NCBI GenBank assembly: GCA_025459285.1
Contig: JALOQY010000005.1
Span: 1-32,743 of the forward strand
DNA from: Planctomycetota bacterium
GTDB taxonomy: Bacteria; Planctomycetota; JAJSAM01
Length of the DNA stretch: 32,743 nt
Direction of reading: 5' to 3'
In this document: positions 792 to 31,373 of the stretch, piece by piece
Numbering within the stretch: the first letter of the stretch is position 1
Layout of the letters: each line of letters begins with the position of its first letter
Position numbers and translations under genes: made by a program
The notes under the pieces: model-generated
Told to the model about the DNA's origin: nothing
The model's input: the letters and a program-made list of their open reading frames with translations, nothing else
Database searches by the model: none

Positions 792-1988
792 TCAGGTGCC
801 GAGCCACTCCCTCCGCAGCGCGGCGAGAGAGTCCTCCCGGATCGCCCGGCGGATCCGCGCCATCAGGTCGAGCACGAAGTGGACATTGTGGATCGTGGCG
901 AGGCGGAAGAAGGTCAGCTCGTGGGCCAGGAAGAGGTGGCGGAGGTAGGCGCGGGAGTACGTGCGGCAGGTGGAGCAGGCGCAGGCCGGGTCGATCGGCA
1001 ACTCGTCGGTCTTGAAACGCGCTCCCCGGAGCTGGAACCGGAAGTTGTTCGCGGGTGCGCCACCCGAAGCCGGAGAGAGGTAGAGAATCCCCCGCCGCGC
1101 CTGCCGTGTCGGCGTCACGCAGTCGAAGGTGTCGATGCCCTTCTCGACACAGAGGAAGAGGTCGTCGATCCCGCCGATGCCGAGCAGATGGCGCGGCCGG
1201 CGGTCGAGGCGCGGGACGACCCAGTCGAGGATCTCGTGCATGTCGTCCTTCGACTTGCCGAGGCTGCCGCCGATCGCGATCCCGTCGAAGGGGCGCGAGC
1301 TCACGAAGTCCGCGCTCGCCTCGCGCAGGTCGCGGAACCAGCCGCCCTGGACGATCCCGTAGAGCGCCTGCCGCGGGTCGTGATCCCGCAGCGAGACCTC
1401 GGCCCAGCGGTGCGTTCGCTCGAGCGCACGCTTCGTGTACTCGTAGTCGGCGAGCGGGCTGGTGCACTCGTCGAAGGCCATGATCATGTCCGCGCCGAGG
1501 TCACTCTGGAGCCGCATGGAGCCCGCGGCATCCAGGAAGTGCTCGGACCCGTCGTAGACCGAGCGGAAGCGGACGCCCTCCTCGGTCACCTCCGCGAGAA
1601 CGGGCGACTTCCCGGCGGCCTCGGCGCGACCCGGGAAGATCGTCCCGAGCTTGTTCACGCCATGGGCCTTCCCGGCCCCGAGGGAGAAGGCCTGGAAGCC
1701 ACCGGAGTCGGTGAAGAAGGGTCGCGGGAAGCCCATGAAGCCGGCGAGTCCGCCGAACTTCCGGATCAGCTCCGCCCCCGGCCGGAGGGCCAGGTGGTAG
1801 GTGTTCGCGAGGGCGCACTGGGCGCCGAGGGCGAGCAGGTCCTCCGACGAGAGCGCCCGCACCGAGGCGCAGGTGGCCACCGGCACGAGGTACGGCGTGT
1901 CGATGGCGCCGCGCGCGGTGCGGATCCTCCCGAGCCGCGCCCGCGAGGCCCGGTCGTTCTTCAGCACTCGAAACCCGAACTCGCTCAT
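792..1988 (-). CDS. tgt: queuine/preQ1 tRNA-ribosyltransferase (tRNA-guanine transglycosylase)
   Basis: ORF 792..2024; likely start is internal M13 (MSEFGFRVLKND...). Motifs: FFTDSGGFQAFSLG, MAFDECTSP, GIVQGG, HLLGIGG, DTFDCVTPTRQARRG, and C-terminal zinc motif CACSTC...H. Confidence 0.93.
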   Translation of the reverse strand: MSEFGFRVLKNDRASRARLGRIRTARGAIDTPYLVPVATCASVRALSSEDLLALGAQCALANTYHLALRPGAELIRKFGGLAGFMGFPRPFFTDSGGFQAFSLGAGKAHGVNKLGTIFPGRAEAAGKSPVLAEVTEEGVRFRSVYDGSEHFLDAAGSMRLQSDLGADMIMAFDECTSPLADYEYTKRALERTHRWAEVSLRDHDPRQALYGIVQGGWFRDLREASADFVSSRPFDGIAIGGSLGKSKDDMHEILDWVVPRLDRRPRHLLGIGGIDDLFLCVEKGIDTFDCVTPTRQARRGILYLSPASGGAPANNFRFQLRGARFKTDELPIDPACACSTCRTYSRAYLRHLFLAHELTFFRLATIHNVHFVLDLMARIRRAIREDSLAALRREWLGT

Positions 1989-1995
1989 CGTGACG

Positions 1996-2060
1996 CACCT
2001 GGGGCCTGACCCCGAGTGTGTCATTTTGGACCATCTGGTGCCAGACCCCCGGAGTCATTT
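1996..2060. repeat. two imperfect direct copies of a REP-like unit (family B)
   Basis: CACCTGGGGCCTGACCCCGAGTGTGTCATTT (1996..2026) and CATCTGGTGCCAGACCCCCGGAGTCATTT (2032..2060); shared core CTGG-GCC-GACCCC...TCATTT. The GGGGCCTGACCCC core is self-complementary at its ends. Confidence 0.65.
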
Positions 2061-2094: not shown

Positions 2095-3924
2095 ATGGCA
2101 CGCGGGAAGGACAGCGGGCGGATCCGGCTCCAGCCGGCCGATTCCTTCGACCTCATCCGGCTCATCGCGAGGTCCCAGTCGGACCCCCGGAAGGCGGTGG
2201 CCGAGCTGGTGCAGAACTCCCTCGACGCGGGGGCGAACCACGTGCGCGTGAGCTGGTTCACGCACCAGGGACGGCGGGCGCTCTCGGTGTGGGACGACGG
2301 GCAGGGCGTCTTCCCCGACCTCGATCGCCCGGCCGCCCTCCGCACGATCGCCACGACCCTCGGCCGCTCCCACAAGGCGAAGCTCTCTCCGGCCGAGCGC
2401 CGGGAGCAGATGACGCTCGGCAAGTACGGCATCGGCCTCCTCGGCTTCTGGAGCGTCGGTGAGCGCATGGAGATCCGCAGCCGGGTGGCGGGGTCCGAGT
2501 TCTGGGTGCTCGAACTCGCGGAGGACGTCCGGGACGCCACCGTCCGGCGCCGGCCCGGCGGCCATCTGCCGCTAGACCCCACGATGACCGAGGTCGTGGT
2601 GACGCGCCTCCACCCGTCGGCGGAGGCCGCCCTCAAACCCCGGCGCCTCGCCGCTTATCTCGCGGGCGAGCTCCGGGGTCAGCTCCTCGACCGGACCGTC
2701 GAGTTGGAGATCATCGATCGGGTCGGTCGCGGACTGGCGCAGAAGCGACGCGTCGTCCGGCCCGTGAAGTACATGGGCATTCCCCTCACGCAGCTCGGCG
2801 AGCTCACCGTGGAGGGCTTCGCCGCGGCGCGCGTCGAGCTGTACCTGGTCCCGGAGGCCGAGGGCCGCCGGGGCATGGTCGCCCTCGCCTGCGGCGGCGG
2901 CACGGTCCTCCCGGACATCGCGCTCATGGACGGGCCGGAAGCGCCGCGCGCGCCGTGGTCGGCGGGTCGCTTCGAAGGGGTCATCGACTTCCCGGACCTG
3001 ACCGTGGCCCCGTCCACCCGGCGCGGCTTCGTGCCGGACGCGCCGGCCGAGGCGTTCCTCGCGGCCCTCCCGACCCTGGAGGCCCGGCTGCGGGTGATCC
3101 TCGACGAGGAGGCCGTGCGCCGCCGGGTGGAGGACGAGGCGGACGACGCGAAGGCGCTACGCCGGCTCTTCCGGCGCCTCCCGAAGTCCCTGCCGCACTA
3201 CACGCTGTTCGAGGTGGAGGGCCCGGGCCCCGGGCGTACCCCGGCGGGACCAGGAGAAACGATGCCGGAAGTGGAGGGTGAGGGGGCGGGCGTCGAAGCC
3301 GAGGAGTTCGAGCCCGCTGGCGCCGGCGGCTCCCCGGACACGGACCTCCTCTATCCTCCGGGCCCCCTCGCCGCCGTGGAGGTCCGGCCCCGGCGCAGCA
3401 CGCTGGCGCCGGGGGGCAGCCGCGCCCTGCGCGCCGTGGCGAAGGACGCCGACGGGCGCCGGATCGACGACGGCGTCGGGTTCGAGTGGCGACTCGCCGG
3501 TCCCGGGCAGCTCGCCGGGGACGGCGCCCGTGCCGTCTACCGCGCCCCGGACGATCCCGGCGAGGCGCGCGTCCGAGTGCTGGCGACCTCCGGCGCCGCG
3601 CTTGCCGAGGCCGAGGCGGCGATCAACGTGTCGGAGGATGCGGTGGAGGCCGGCGTCGCGGCGGGCGTCCCCGAGCCGAGGAAGGTCGAAGCCCCCGCCG
3701 AGGACTGGCGCTCCCGCTTCCGCGGGATCCGGTGGGACGTCAACACCGCCCACCCCGACTGGCTCCTCGTGCGCGACGACAAGCGGCGTCGCCTCGCCTA
3801 CCTCGCGCAGCTCTTCGCGAAGGAGGTGGTCCTCCGCAACTTCGGTGGGGAGGCCGGCGGCCAGATCCTCGAGCGGCTCGTGCAGGTGCTCACCCGCATC
3901 GGCGAGCCCGCGCGCCGGGCGTGA
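2095..3924 (+). CDS. GHKL (Hsp90/MORC-like) ATPase with Ig-like insert and conserved-looking C-terminal domain
   Basis: ORF 1801..3924; likely start ATG 2095 (MARGKDSGRIRLQPADSF). N box AVAELVQNSLDAGANHVRV, G1 VWDDGQG, G2 LGKYGIGLLGFWSVG. Ig-like stretch LAAVEVRPRRSTLAPGGSRALRAVAKDADGR...; C-terminus WDVNTAHPDWLLVRDDKRRRLAYLAQLFAKEVVL. Confidence 0.85.
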   Translation: MARGKDSGRIRLQPADSFDLIRLIARSQSDPRKAVAELVQNSLDAGANHVRVSWFTHQGRRALSVWDDGQGVFPDLDRPAALRTIATTLGRSHKAKLSPAERREQMTLGKYGIGLLGFWSVGERMEIRSRVAGSEFWVLELAEDVRDATVRRRPGGHLPLDPTMTEVVVTRLHPSAEAALKPRRLAAYLAGELRGQLLDRTVELEIIDRVGRGLAQKRRVVRPVKYMGIPLTQLGELTVEGFAAARVELYLVPEAEGRRGMVALACGGGTVLPDIALMDGPEAPRAPWSAGRFEGVIDFPDLTVAPSTRRGFVPDAPAEAFLAALPTLEARLRVILDEEAVRRRVEDEADDAKALRRLFRRLPKSLPHYTLFEVEGPGPGRTPAGPGETMPEVEGEGAGVEAEEFEPAGAGGSPDTDLLYPPGPLAAVEVRPRRSTLAPGGSRALRAVAKDADGRRIDDGVGFEWRLAGPGQLAGDGARAVYRAPDDPGEARVRVLATSGAALAEAEAAINVSEDAVEAGVAAGVPEPRKVEAPAEDWRSRFRGIRWDVNTAHPDWLLVRDDKRRRLAYLAQLFAKEVVLRNFGGEAGGQILERLVQVLTRIGEPARRA

Positions 3925-3991
3925 TCGCCCGTCACGACGCCGGCTCGGATGCTGGACCTCCGGTAGGACATAAAGTAGGATGATTCATACG

Positions 3992-4255
3992 ATGAACCGG
4001 CTGAAGATCAGCATCACTCTGCCTGCCGATCTCGTGGAACGAATCGACGAGGAGGCGGGACGGACGGCCCGCGCGAACCGGAGCGCCGTGATCGAGCGCT
4101 GGCTCCGGGCCGGCGCGCGCCGGCAGGCGGGGGAGAGGCTCCGGGAAGCAACCATCGCCTACTACGATTCCCTCCGGGCGGAGGAGAGGGCCGACGATGC
4201 GGCCTATGCCCGGGCCGTCGCCGAGAGTTCCCTCAGGCTCCGCTACGATGACTGA
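3992..4255 (+). CDS. ribbon-helix-helix antitoxin-like protein
   Basis: MNRLKISITLPADLVERIDEEAGRTARANRSAVIERWLRAGAR: classic RHH (CopG/MazE-like) N-terminus. The ORF track start at 3980 is possible. Confidence 0.82.
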   Translation: MNRLKISITLPADLVERIDEEAGRTARANRSAVIERWLRAGARRQAGERLREATIAYYDSLRAEERADDAAYARAVAESSLRLRYDD

Positions 4256-4592
4256 GCGACTCCCGCCCCCGCGTCGCGGACGACTCCATTGGGCGCTGCT
4301 CGGCAAGCGCCGGCCGGTGCTCGTCCTCTCGCCGGACTATCGCAACGAACGTGCCTCCGACCTCATCGTCATCCCCTGCTCCACGCGGCTCCGGGAGGCG
4401 CCGACCCACGTGCGGCTCGCGCGGGGACAGGGAGGGATCGCCGTGCCCTCCGTGCTGAAGTGCGAGCAGATCACGACGCTCCCGCGCGACGTGCTCGACC
4501 CGCGCCCGCTCGGCCCCCCGCTCGAAGGCGCGCTCCTGGCCGCCGTGGAGCAGGCCGTCCTGCGCGCCATCGGCGTCCCGGTCGGCTGCTGA
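4248..4592 (+). CDS. MazF/PemK-family toxin (mRNA interferase-like)
   Basis: GRLHWALLGKRRPVLVLSPDYRNERASDLIVIPCSTRLREAPTHV...VLKCEQITTLPRDVL; starts 8 nt inside the RHH gene, the typical TA overlap. Confidence 0.83.
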   Translation: MTERLPPPRRGRLHWALLGKRRPVLVLSPDYRNERASDLIVIPCSTRLREAPTHVRLARGQGGIAVPSVLKCEQITTLPRDVLDPRPLGPPLEGALLAAVEQAVLRAIGVPVGC

Positions 4593-4632: not shown

Positions 4633-5100
4633 TCACCTCGGGTCCGCGGCGTCCGGGTCGGGCGGGGCCAGCGAGAGGAGCCTCGCGTCCTCGAGATCCA
4701 CGGGACGCCCTGCGGCGCGCTTCGACTCGATGAGATCTTCCCGGGAGACGACGGGGATCGCGACTCCGCGGAAGTCCATCGTGACTCTCCGTCCGACGGC
4801 CGTATCGAACTCGAGGCCGGGCGTTCGGGTCTGCACGTCTATGCGCACGCGGTCGCGGAAGATCGAGATCTCGTTCGAGAGGACGGCCTCCGGCGTCGTC
4901 AGGGCGGCCGTTCCAAGGCCTCCGGCGAGCATGGCTTCGAGGAGGCGGCGGGCGTTCTCAGGCGTGGCGCGGATCAGGATGTCGACGTCGAATGTGGTCC
5001 GCGGGACCCCATGCAGGATGGCGGCGACCCCTCCGATGACGAGGTAGTCGACCTCAAGGTCGTTCAAGCACTTGAACACGCCCCGCAATCGGTCGAGCAT
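4633..5100 (-). CDS. nucleotidyltransferase-fold protein (DUF6036/AbiEii-like)
   Basis: LNDLEVDYLVIGGVAAILHGVPRTTFDVDILIRATPENARRLLEAM: GG...TxDxD nucleotidyltransferase signature; 155 aa. Confidence 0.78.
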   Translation of the reverse strand: MLDRLRGVFKCLNDLEVDYLVIGGVAAILHGVPRTTFDVDILIRATPENARRLLEAMLAGGLGTAALTTPEAVLSNEISIFRDRVRIDVQTRTPGLEFDTAVGRRVTMDFRGVAIPVVSREDLIESKRAAGRPVDLEDARLLSLAPPDPDAADPR

Positions 5101-5254
5101 CTCTTCCCCGGGCCAGCTCAGGATGGAAGTGGAGAGCGAGGTCGGTGAACTCCACGAGGAGTTCCATCCGCTCCTCGGCGGTGAGCGACTGGAACCACCG
5201 GGCCTTTGCCTCGGGGGATTCCTCCGACCGGTCGTGGCTTACGGAGTCTGGCAT
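5054..5254 (-). CDS. small partner protein upstream of the nucleotidyltransferase
   Basis: 66 aa, MPDSVSHDRSEESPEAKARWFQSLTAEERMELLVEFTDLAL...; overlaps the nucleotidyltransferase start by 47 nt on the same strand. ARWFQSLTAEER resembles small ORFs seen before such genes (from memory). Confidence 0.55.
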   Translation of the reverse strand: MPDSVSHDRSEESPEAKARWFQSLTAEERMELLVEFTDLALHFHPELARGRDARPIAGRVQVLERP

Positions 5255-7491: not shown

Positions 7492-8025
7492 CTAGCCTGC
7501 GAACAGCGCGCCGAGGTCGAGGGCGAAACCGGGGACCGCCCCGGAGCGGGGAACGCTGCCGGCGGCGAAGAGCCGGGTGCCGGCGGTGGTCACGATCTCC
7601 GCGCACCGCGTGTCGGGATCGACGAGCCAGACCTCCCGTACCCCGGCCCGGAGGTAGGTGCGCGTCTTCACGAGGCGGTCGCGCCGGGCGGTGGAGGGAG
7701 AGAGCACTTCCACGACGAGGACCGGCATCGCGATCTCGACGGCCCCGCGGCGGATCGGCGCGTCCTCCGGCAGGACCGCCACATCCGGCTGGAGGACGTT
7801 GTGCTCGTCCACGAAGACGTCGATGGGGGACTGGATGGCCCGCTCCCGGCCGAGGCAGGCCACCGTCTCGAGGAGAATCTCCCGGACCAGGCGTTGGTGC
7901 CACCCGGTGGGCGCCGGCTCCTTGACGAGGACGCCGTCGATCAGCTCGGCCCGGAAGCCCTCCGGGAGCAACATGTAGTCGGCCCGCGTGAACCGTGCTT
8001 CCTGGACGTTCTTCATGGTAACCAT
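7492..8025 (-). CDS. Uma2-family (DUF820) putative restriction-endonuclease-fold protein
   Basis: LLPEGFRAELIDGVLVKEPAPTGWHQRLV...LQPDVAVLPED...MPVLVVEVLSPSTARRDRLVKTRTYLRAGVREVWLVDPDTR; PD...EVLSPST...K...W.VD pattern. Start chosen at MVTMKNVQEARF. Confidence 0.88.
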   Translation of the reverse strand: MVTMKNVQEARFTRADYMLLPEGFRAELIDGVLVKEPAPTGWHQRLVREILLETVACLGRERAIQSPIDVFVDEHNVLQPDVAVLPEDAPIRRGAVEIAMPVLVVEVLSPSTARRDRLVKTRTYLRAGVREVWLVDPDTRCAEIVTTAGTRLFAAGSVPRSGAVPGFALDLGALFAG

Positions 8026-28988: not shown

Positions 28989-31373
28989 ATGCTGCGCTTC
29001 CTCGTCCAGACCGCCGGCGTCCCCGAGAGGACGCTGGATCTCGAAGGGTTCGAACTCACGGCCGGCTCCGACCCCTCGGCCGACCTCCATCTCGCCGACC
29101 CGGCGGCGTCGCTCCGCCACTTCCGGATCGAGGTCCGGGAGGGCGCGGCGTTTCTCCGGGACCTCGGTTCCGGCGGCGTCACGAAGGTGAACGGCGAGCC
29201 GGCGAGCCTCGTCCGGCTCGCCGTCGGGGACCTCGTGGAAGTGGGCCGCACGCGGATCATCTTCGCGCTGCAGACCGCGGGGCCCGCCGCGGCGGTAGCC
29301 GTCCCGCCGATCGCGGCCGCGCCGCCTCCGGCCTGGCCCGCGCCCGCGCCGGCGGTCACGGCGGCCCCGCCTCCCCCGGCGGCCCCCCTGCCGCTCCGGG
29401 GTCCCTCCGGACCGGTCTCGCCGCGCGGACCCTACCGCCGCGAGTCGTCACCGGTGGCCGCCGTGATCCTCGTCCTCCTCGCCGCCGCGGCCTTCGCGGC
29501 CCACCTCCTTCTGCGGCCCGAGGAAACCGCCCGCCGTCCGGCCCGCGAGCCGTTCACCCCGCCCTCCGTGGCGGCGGCGCGGGTCCCCGAGATCCGGCTC
29601 CCCGTGGCGGGCGCCGGGGCCGCGGGCTTCGACCCCTCCGCGGTGATTCCGGTCGTTCCGGTGGAGCCCGTCCCCGCGGTCCCCGAGCCGTCGCCGGAGG
29701 GGCCGACCGAGCCGAAGGAGCCTGCGGATCGCCCGCCCCCCGTCCCTCCCGACGACGCCTCGGCGCGCGCCGCCGCGGATCGGGCCCGGAGCGAACACGA
29801 GCGTGCCGAGCGCGAGCTCGCGGAGCGCACGCGGAGGGAGGCCGAGGCGCGCGAAGGGTACCGGAAGCTCGACGAGACCATCGGCGCGCGGGTGGCCCGC
29901 TACTCCTTCGCCGGCCCGCTCGCGGACCTCGAGGCGCTCCTCCCCTCGGTCCCCGAGGGCGAACTCCGGGGCCTCGTGCTGGGGCGGATCGACTCGCTCC
30001 GGCGCGCCTCCCGGGCCTTCGACCGCCTGCGGGCCGGGCTCGGCGGGGGCGACCGGAAACTCGCCCTGTCGAGCGGCCTCACGCTCGTTGTCACCGGCAC
30101 GGACGAGGAGGGCTTCCGGGCGAAAGTCTCCGGCGCCGAGATCCGCAAGAAGTGGTCGGAGCTGGACCCCGCGACGGTCCGCACCGCGCTGCGGACGATG
30201 GCCGGGGACGCGGAAAGCCGCCTCGACCTCGCGGCCTTCGCCGACCTCTACTCCCTCGACGGCGCGGAGGAGGACCTCGTGATCGCGTTCCGGGCCGATG
30301 CCTCGGTCCTTCGAGCGATCAACGACATGCTCGCACGCCGCCGCGGGACCTCCGTGCCCGCGGGCGGGTACGTGCTCCACGAGGACGAGTGGGTCACCGT
30401 GGAGGAGAAGGGCCACCTCGAGCGGGGGCTGGTGAAGCATGACGGCCGCTGGATGACGAAGGAGGAGGCCCTCGTCGCCCAGGGCTTCGTGAAGCACGAG
30501 GGGCGGTGGCTGAGCCCCGAGGACTACCAGGAGGTGCTCGACGCGAGGCGGGAGGCGGAAGAACTCGCGGCGAAGTACCTGCCCAAGGGCCTCATCGACC
30601 AGCCCGGCAACGGAGCGGCGGTGACCTGGGAGAAGGCCCGGGAGCTGAAGAGCGCCCACTACCGGATCCGGACGAACCTCTCGGAGGAGGTCGCGCGGGA
30701 CATCGCCTACACGATGGAGATCCTGCGCACGAACCTCGCGGGGATTTTCGGGCTGAAGGGCCGGGGCTCCACCTTCACGATCAACGTGGTGGGGACGCAG
30801 GACGAGTACCGGCGTGCCTGGCCACAATCCGGGGGAAGCCTCGGCTTCTGCTCGACCTCGGAGATCTGCACCTTCTACCAGCCGCCGATGACCACCGGCG
30901 TCCTGATGCACGAGGGGACGCACCAGATGGTGCGCTGGCTGGCGCCTTCCTGCCCGCGCTGGCTCCACGAGGGGATGGCCACGTTCTTCGAGTGCAGCCG
31001 CTTCGCGTTCGACGCGGACCGGAAGAAGGTGCGCCTCGAAGTCGGGCTGCTGAACGCGAACCGGCTGGCGGGTTTCCAGGCGGAGCTCGCCTCGAACCGG
31101 GCGGTCTCCCTGGAGACCTTCATGCAGGGCGACGGGGGCAACCACTACACGCAGGGCTGGGCGCTGGTCTACTACCTCGCCAAGGGCAGGGACGGTCAGT
31201 ACGCGCGCCGGCTCCAGCCGTTCCTCGAGGAGGCGCACAAGACGGACGTGGTGGACCGGTTCCGGAAGATCTTCCGGGTGAAGGACCTGAAGACCTTCGA
31301 GGCGGAGTGGCTCGCGTGGGTGAGAGCACAGAACCCCGCCGACGGCGTCTCCCTCGACTCCCGCCACCGGTGA
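28989..31373 (+). CDS. FHA domain - TM - coiled coil - DUF1570-like zinc metallopeptidase
   Basis: FHA: LEGFELTAGSDPSADLHLADPAASLRHFRIEVREGAAFLRDLGSGGVTKVNG; TM: VAAVILVLLAAAAFAAHLLL; gluzincin-like VLMHEGTHQMVRWLAPSCPRWLHEGMATFFE. ATG 28989 preferred over the track's TTG at 28947. Confidence 0.87.
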   Translation: MLRFLVQTAGVPERTLDLEGFELTAGSDPSADLHLADPAASLRHFRIEVREGAAFLRDLGSGGVTKVNGEPASLVRLAVGDLVEVGRTRIIFALQTAGPAAAVAVPPIAAAPPPAWPAPAPAVTAAPPPPAAPLPLRGPSGPVSPRGPYRRESSPVAAVILVLLAAAAFAAHLLLRPEETARRPAREPFTPPSVAAARVPEIRLPVAGAGAAGFDPSAVIPVVPVEPVPAVPEPSPEGPTEPKEPADRPPPVPPDDASARAAADRARSEHERAERELAERTRREAEAREGYRKLDETIGARVARYSFAGPLADLEALLPSVPEGELRGLVLGRIDSLRRASRAFDRLRAGLGGGDRKLALSSGLTLVVTGTDEEGFRAKVSGAEIRKKWSELDPATVRTALRTMAGDAESRLDLAAFADLYSLDGAEEDLVIAFRADASVLRAINDMLARRRGTSVPAGGYVLHEDEWVTVEEKGHLERGLVKHDGRWMTKEEALVAQGFVKHEGRWLSPEDYQEVLDARREAEELAAKYLPKGLIDQPGNGAAVTWEKARELKSAHYRIRTNLSEEVARDIAYTMEILRTNLAGIFGLKGRGSTFTINVVGTQDEYRRAWPQSGGSLGFCSTSEICTFYQPPMTTGVLMHEGTHQMVRWLAPSCPRWLHEGMATFFECSRFAFDADRKKVRLEVGLLNANRLAGFQAELASNRAVSLETFMQGDGGNHYTQGWALVYYLAKGRDGQYARRLQPFLEEAHKTDVVDRFRKIFRVKDLKTFEAEWLAWVRAQNPADGVSLDSRHR

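Follow-up and report, generated by a model that had tools for sequence, protein, structure and literature searches.

The gene at positions 2095-3924 of the window, the whole 32,743-nucleotide stretch of Planctomycetota DNA analysed here, is real and intact, and is a member of an uncharacterised family scattered across many bacterial phyla. Its 609-aa product (P0001; Planctomycetota genome) contains, in order: a GHKL ATPase; an S5 domain; a long helix; a disordered linker; an Ig-like (Big_2-type) domain; and a C-terminal domain (CTD). The initial annotation, made from the sequence alone, had proposed a GHKL ATPase with an Ig-like segment and a distinct C-terminal domain, and this anatomy is borne out by Pfam, AlphaFold, Foldseek, a LigA profile match and the conservation of the CTD. 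With slightly less than even confidence, the protein is read here as a cytosolic, stand-alone GHKL ATPase of the paraMORC type that may act as an ATP-gated dimeric clamp on DNA, sometimes with an SNF2 translocase. The features of the gene are:

2095-3924, plus strand: whole gene, 609-aa ATPase of GHKL-S5-helix-linker-Ig-CTD architecture, P0001 (frame, Pfam, homologues, AlphaFold)
2116-2610, plus strand: GHKL (Bergerat) ATP-binding domain, residues about 8-172 (HATPase_c_3, AlphaFold, Foldseek)
2203-2226, plus strand: N box, E37-x3-N41-x2-D44 (kept in 38/38 homologues covering the region)
2293-2307, plus strand: G1 box, D67-D-G69-x-G71 (D67, G69 and G71 in 38/38)
2419-2436, plus strand: G2 box, G109-x-Y-G112-I-G114 (G109 and G114 in 38/38; G112 in 37/38)
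2611-3030, plus strand: S5/transducer domain, residues about 173-312, in which E192-L-R194 and R309 are invariant (AlphaFold, alignment)
3031-3189, plus strand: long helix, residues about 316-365 (AlphaFold)
3190-3354, plus strand: acidic, poorly conserved linker, residues 366-420 (pLDDT about 26-50; 22% identity)
3364-3633, plus strand: Ig-like (Big_2-type) domain, residues 424-513 (AlphaFold, LigA profile match, Big_2)
3667-3903, plus strand: CTD, residues 525-603, short strands then three helices (own model, conservation)
3706-3759, plus strand: CTD signature WRSR...N-x-x-H-x-D (alignment; also found in RF-1-like proteins)

The open frame is unbroken over its 609 codons. The ATG at 2095 is the supported start, as homologues begin at about the same residue, and a longer frame from 1801 is not supported, because homologues start near residue 1 of the 2095 frame. 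A scan for promoters and terminators found none, and a putative repeat preceding the start codon was discarded, its frequency being no higher than chance. The AlphaFold model of the protein, built with 12 homologues, has a mean pLDDT of 76.

Pfam places HATPase_c_3 at residues 32-134 (E 1.8e-13), and its only other matches are weaker and fall on the same ATPase region. When motif conservation was counted in 39 aligned homologues, wherever the region was present, E37, N41, D44, D67, G69, G71, G109 and G114 were invariant, and G112 was replaced by C in a single homologue of 38. The protein thus carries the N, G1 and G2 ATP-binding motifs that define the GHKL superfamily, as the initial annotation had read from the sequence. 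By analogy with MutL and Hsp90, the N box residues would serve as general base and Mg ligand. In the AlphaFold model, and consistent with Foldseek, the GHKL domain is followed by an S5 domain, the arrangement expected of MORC and paraMORC proteins.

Foldseek comparison of the full protein, a check that the initial annotation had proposed, places the ATPase part closest among solved structures to the SMCHD1 ATPase (7.9e-12), Hsp90 and MORC2/3/4, with the Hsp90 matches nearly as good as those to MORC; topoisomerase VI-B chain 9o0g_D was also matched. By sequence, the best match is MutL. This and the matches to BbrUII/HgiDII restriction enzymes, Hsp90 and sacsin are confined to the ATPase region, and NCBIfam adds an HSP90-family ATPase match (2.7e-6). 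A search of the full model against viral structures returned Hsp90, rIIA and topoisomerases, which share the ATPase fold only. The earlier statement that the ATPase is not joined to a histidine kinase, MutL or GyrB architecture holds in Pfam scans of the protein and of the family. MutL identity itself was rejected (TIGR00585, 33 vs 180 bits, ATPase part only); a second, separate GHKL gene of the window genome reads as MutL.

The Ig-like domain had been predicted at about residues 420-520. The AlphaFold model has an all-beta domain there, with seven strands at 425-512 and pLDDT of about 90. At 426-515, the profile built from the family picks out an Ig-like domain of Leptospira LigA (E 8e-5), and Pfam Big_2 matches 2/39 members (best E 0.0012). 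These sequence matches back the assignment to the Big_2 Ig-like type independently. The domain is retained in all 39 aligned full-length members (occupancy 1.00). In five Chloroflexota relatives (L115, L208-L211), the alignment covers ATPase-S5 and then the CTD, skipping the Ig-like part, and the same part is skipped in a direct search of the L069 genome with the L115 protein. As these relatives carry the ATPase and CTD without it, the Ig-like domain is an optional, dispensable module, and the family core is GHKL-S5-CTD. The initial annotation had also called an Ig-like fold in a GHKL protein unusual. The fold is present, but it has a precedent in Methanosarcina mazei topoisomerase VI-B, which has an Ig-like C-terminal domain after its GHKL transducer (PMC11302465), and it is dispensable in the wider family.

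The C-terminal block singled out earlier is a strongly conserved domain at about residues 525-603. Modelled alone, it reaches a pLDDT of 88 and comprises short strands followed by three helices, two of them long and making up most of the domain. Identity to the window protein is 44% in the CTD, close to the 45% of the ATPase and twice the 22% of the linker. R539, N550, H553, D555, Y569, L573, K576 and E577 are invariant and W538, S540, R541 and A575 nearly so, giving a family signature of W-R-[ST]-R, N-x-x-H-x-D and AKE. The CTD is common to the whole family, the Ig-less Chloroflexota members included. Searches by sequence against Pfam and PDB gave no match, and the fold search gave nothing significant; its few non-significant matches include several chains of TRAP1 (mitochondrial Hsp90), whose C-terminus the CTD resembles only at E 2.6 or worse.

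Outside the ATPase family, the CTD profile finds only six weak matches in Planctomycetota (E 4e-5 to 9e-5). All six are GGQ-motif proteins (L167-L172), two of them confirmed RF-1 domain proteins, and they form one protein family, so they do not count as six independent events. Their C-terminal segment, like 'SELWRSRLRSGKVSVNPTHDDF', resembles the first 30 residues of the CTD, and profile-profile comparison (hhalign) of the CTD with the RF-1-like C-terminus aligns 32 residues at 96% probability. No such RF-1-like GGQ protein with a CTD-like segment occurs in the window genome. The similarity may stem from convergence, or a small hairpin element may be homologous. That the CTD is a recurring functional module of different machines, perhaps recognising one common target (RNA or the ribosome, for example), is a long shot; if true, the target of the ATPase might be linked to translation or RNA instead of being DNA.

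An alignment-based scan of genome contigs found 62 loci. These span Planctomycetota, Acidobacteriota, Myxococcota, Eisenbacteria, Fibrobacterota, Nitrospirota, Spirochaetota and Pseudomonadota, with one Ig-less Chloroflexota member and two archaeal MAGs; as the loci come from metagenome bins, single taxon assignments may be wrong. About 60 loci, in eight bacterial phyla, have the GHKL-S5-Ig-CTD architecture, and the family reaches about nine phyla. Among Planctomycetota genomes, 14/392 carry the gene, the window genome included. Single-sequence scans of genome contigs and viral contigs returned no homologue, and the alignment-based search likewise gave none on viral contigs. A tree of 52 members separates, with full support, clade A (25, including the window protein) from clade B (27). 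No curated family in the searched libraries covers the full-length architecture, and a literature search found no single paper uniting these features. At L049 (G021:C68), the homologue is broken close to residue 156, its two parts lying in separate frames; either the genome or the assembly carries a frameshift. At L051:8351-9814 (G206:C2), the ATPase-S5 match runs to about residue 274 and is followed by unrelated sequence, through a domain swap or an assembly artefact.

The gene neighbourhoods differ between the two clades. Within two genes of the homologues lie 134 neighbours, and the SNF2 helicase is the only family recurring in more than three. The helicase profiled, that of L099, has an N-terminal SWIM zinc finger. 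By clustering, this SWIM-SNF2 family adjoins the ATPase in six clade-B loci of four sublineages (L084; L088/L095/L100; L094; L099), in differing orientations, and a decayed SNF2 helicase remnant lies beside the ATPase in L105. Under a random-neighbour model, four independent SNF2 adjacencies have P of about 1e-11, a rough estimate that uses frequencies in Planctomycetota and takes each genome to have 4,500 genes. SWIM-SNF2 also occurs in 6/14 ATPase-bearing Planctomycetota genomes vs 36/378 others (p 0.0017, with two genomes whose genes are adjacent included and kinship and genome size uncorrected).

In clade A, that of the window, no helicase adjoins the ATPase gene, and no neighbour is common to enough loci to matter. 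SWIM-SNF2 is found in 3/10 clade-A genomes, judged by shared SNF2 homology with orthology unproven, which suggests a weak genome-level link. In the window genome, the helicase (L122) is on another contig, G000:C281, at the contig end beside zwf/gnd-like genes. Because it sits apart, next to pentose-phosphate genes, any functional ATPase-helicase link in the window organism would be hypothetical.

The immediate surroundings of the window copy are:

792-2024, minus strand: tRNA-guanine transglycosylase, housekeeping, divergent from the ATPase gene (TGT 9.1e-120)
3980-4255, plus strand: ribbon-helix-helix antitoxin, starting 55 bp past the ATPase stop codon (RHH_1 1.9e-7)
4248-4592, plus strand: PemK/MazF-like toxin overlapping the RHH gene, a type II toxin-antitoxin (TA) pair (PemK_toxin 4.5e-15)
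4633-5254, minus strand: DUF6036/AbiEii-like nucleotidyltransferase (4633-5100) with an overlapping 66-aa ORF (5054-5254), TA-like (DUF6036 3.1e-7)

Of the two TA-like modules that had been noted here, the RHH and PemK/MazF pair is confirmed; the DUF6036 gene with its 66-aa ORF is TA-like, with weaker backing. The modules simply adjoin the ATPase gene, and a conserved link was not found. Related AbiEii/DUF6036-type nucleotidyltransferases are found no more than about 1 kb from the ATPase in the window (4633-5254), L070 (10856-11383) and L085 (7272-7778), three distant homologues, which are too few for a link. Farther out in the window are genes for an esterase, cation efflux, Uma2 and AcrB-type efflux, and a TldD/PmbA pair. 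The Uma2 family gene (7492-8025) matches the PADLOC candidate PDC-S03 (6.6e-24), and an FHA-domain protein with a DUF1570 region lies at 28989-31373. Overall, the gene context of the window does not look like a defence island.

Among the closest known systems are the paraMORCs (Iyer, Abhiman and Aravind 2008, PMC2292703). These share with the protein all GHKL motifs, an S5 domain, a family-specific C-terminal extension and a sporadic lateral distribution; the superfamily II helicase neighbour is shared by clade B only, with SWIM-SNF2 at 6 clade-B loci and none in clade A. The paper also reports MORC and paraMORC genes beside superfamily II helicases in restriction-type operons. The parts read mention no Ig-like module, unlike the proteins here, and no methylase, nuclease or restriction enzyme operon was found among the neighbours of the homologues. 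In paraMORC1-5, the C-terminal extension is an RE-fold, a TIR or HxH domain, or the extension specific to paraMORC1; the CTD has no Pfam match. The family may be identical to paraMORC1 or paraMORC5.

The eukaryotic and prokaryotic MORCs and SMCHD1 supply the best structural matches for the ATPase-S5 part. Unlike them, the family lacks the S5 signature GhXhhpXXRhl (0/39 homologues), on which ground strict MORC membership was rejected, and no CW or hinge domain was seen. The order of GHKL, transducer and Ig-like domain, and the fold match to 9o0g_D, recall M. mazei topoisomerase VI-B (PMC11302465). In contrast to that enzyme, no H2TH was recognised, no topo VI-A adjoins and an extra CTD follows the Ig-like domain; this identity was rejected, as the protein has no match to the family and no topo VI-A is among the scanned window genes. 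VcSduA, of GHKL-type Shedu and modelled as an entwined dimer, is likewise encoded by one bacterial gene and joins GHKL to a C-terminal output domain (PMC12137116). Unlike VcSduA, the ATPase lacks the DUF4263 nuclease in Pfam and has no Pfam match beyond the ATPase, and Shedu membership was rejected. Similarity to BbrUII/HgiDII (NF050001) and MzaB is weak and limited to the ATPase domain, with scores far below the curated cut-offs (28.7/550 and 18.6/850 bits). Already known, then, is an Ig-like fold after a GHKL transducer; uncharacterised here is the CTD.

GHKL ATPases of the MutL, Hsp90 and MORC kind close as dimers upon ATP. If the protein is a paraMORC-type clamp, its cycle would involve: closure by ATP of the N-terminal GHKL-S5 arms of two subunits; extension of the clamp's reach by the long helix and linker; and action of the Ig-like module and CTD in holding the dimer together and/or binding a partner or nucleic acid. 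The modelled S5 domain, long helix and flexible linker and the conserved CTD fit such a clamp, in which the N-terminus would be the gate and the C-terminus the interface to the other subunit or a partner. DNA would be the most likely substrate, held or compacted as by MORC or MutL, and in one branch the adjoining SWIM-SNF2 translocase would probably load or push the clamp. DNA is favoured because the helicase neighbour belongs to a DNA translocase family and because restriction-type operons of MORC or paraMORC genes and superfamily II helicases are described in PMC2292703. The intact gene, the conserved ATPase motifs and family architecture, the predicted fold of each domain, the optional Ig-like module and the clade-B SNF2 adjacency are shown here, and ATP hydrolysis, dimerisation, DNA as substrate and the roles of the Ig-like domain and CTD are inferred from them. 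Counted against the clamp are the near-equal Hsp90 similarity, the missing MORC S5 motif, the window copy having no adjoining helicase, and the weak genome-level tie to SWIM-SNF2 in clade A.

The same Hsp90 similarity, both in Foldseek and in the NCBIfam match, speaks for a rival reading as a protein-remodelling chaperone, whose GHKL-S5 clamp would close on protein clients and whose Ig-like domain and CTD would bind clients and dimerise. The TRAP1 chains among the non-significant CTD fold matches and the solitary gene of clade A point the same way. This reading is nevertheless rather unlikely: the clade-B helicase adjacency points to DNA, MutL is the best sequence match and no chaperone genes are among the neighbours examined. 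Alternatively, the CTD itself could be a small enzyme, perhaps a nuclease, under control of the ATPase as in MutL or VcSduA, but with a new active site that the invariant R, N, H, D, K and E residues would form. Its invariant polar set lies within about 80 residues, and GHKL proteins often control a C-terminal nuclease (PMC12137116; PMC2292703). Such an enzyme is improbable, since the domain has no sequence or fold match to any enzyme, its two long helices are compatible with a dimerisation bundle and the invariant residues could be structural.

Single-gene defence against phages or plasmids, in which the GHKL clamp would sense or hold foreign DNA and the CTD or a partner would execute, is also a doubtful reading. 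Defence genes typically show such a sporadic spread over many phyla, paraMORCs are found in restriction systems (PMC2292703), a defence role is proven for the Shedu-type GHKL-nuclease fusion VcSduA (PMC12137116) and TA modules adjoin the window copy. Against this, PADLOC gives no full-length defence model match, only weak matches of about 18 bits to the ATPase region, and its matches among the neighbours are generic SNF2. Pfam recognises no nuclease or other effector domain, that of VcSduA included, and no copy was found on the searched plasmid and phage records or viral contigs. Individually named neighbours are mostly unrelated, metabolic or regulatory. The initial annotation had pointed to anti-phage systems and had named random housekeeping contexts of the homologues as evidence to the contrary, which is the outcome obtained. 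The clade-A neighbours examined (exonuclease I, an aminotransferase, DPP-IV, a periplasmic binding protein) are unrelated, and together with the PADLOC result and the absence of phage or plasmid copies they leave the anti-phage suggestion unsupported.

For the paraMORC-type clamp, candidate physiological roles are genome silencing, repair or defence. The newly defined, conserved CTD is a candidate addition to protein family libraries, and the ATPase with its SWIM-SNF2 helicase offers a compact bacterial pair for testing ideas on MORC-type DNA clamping.
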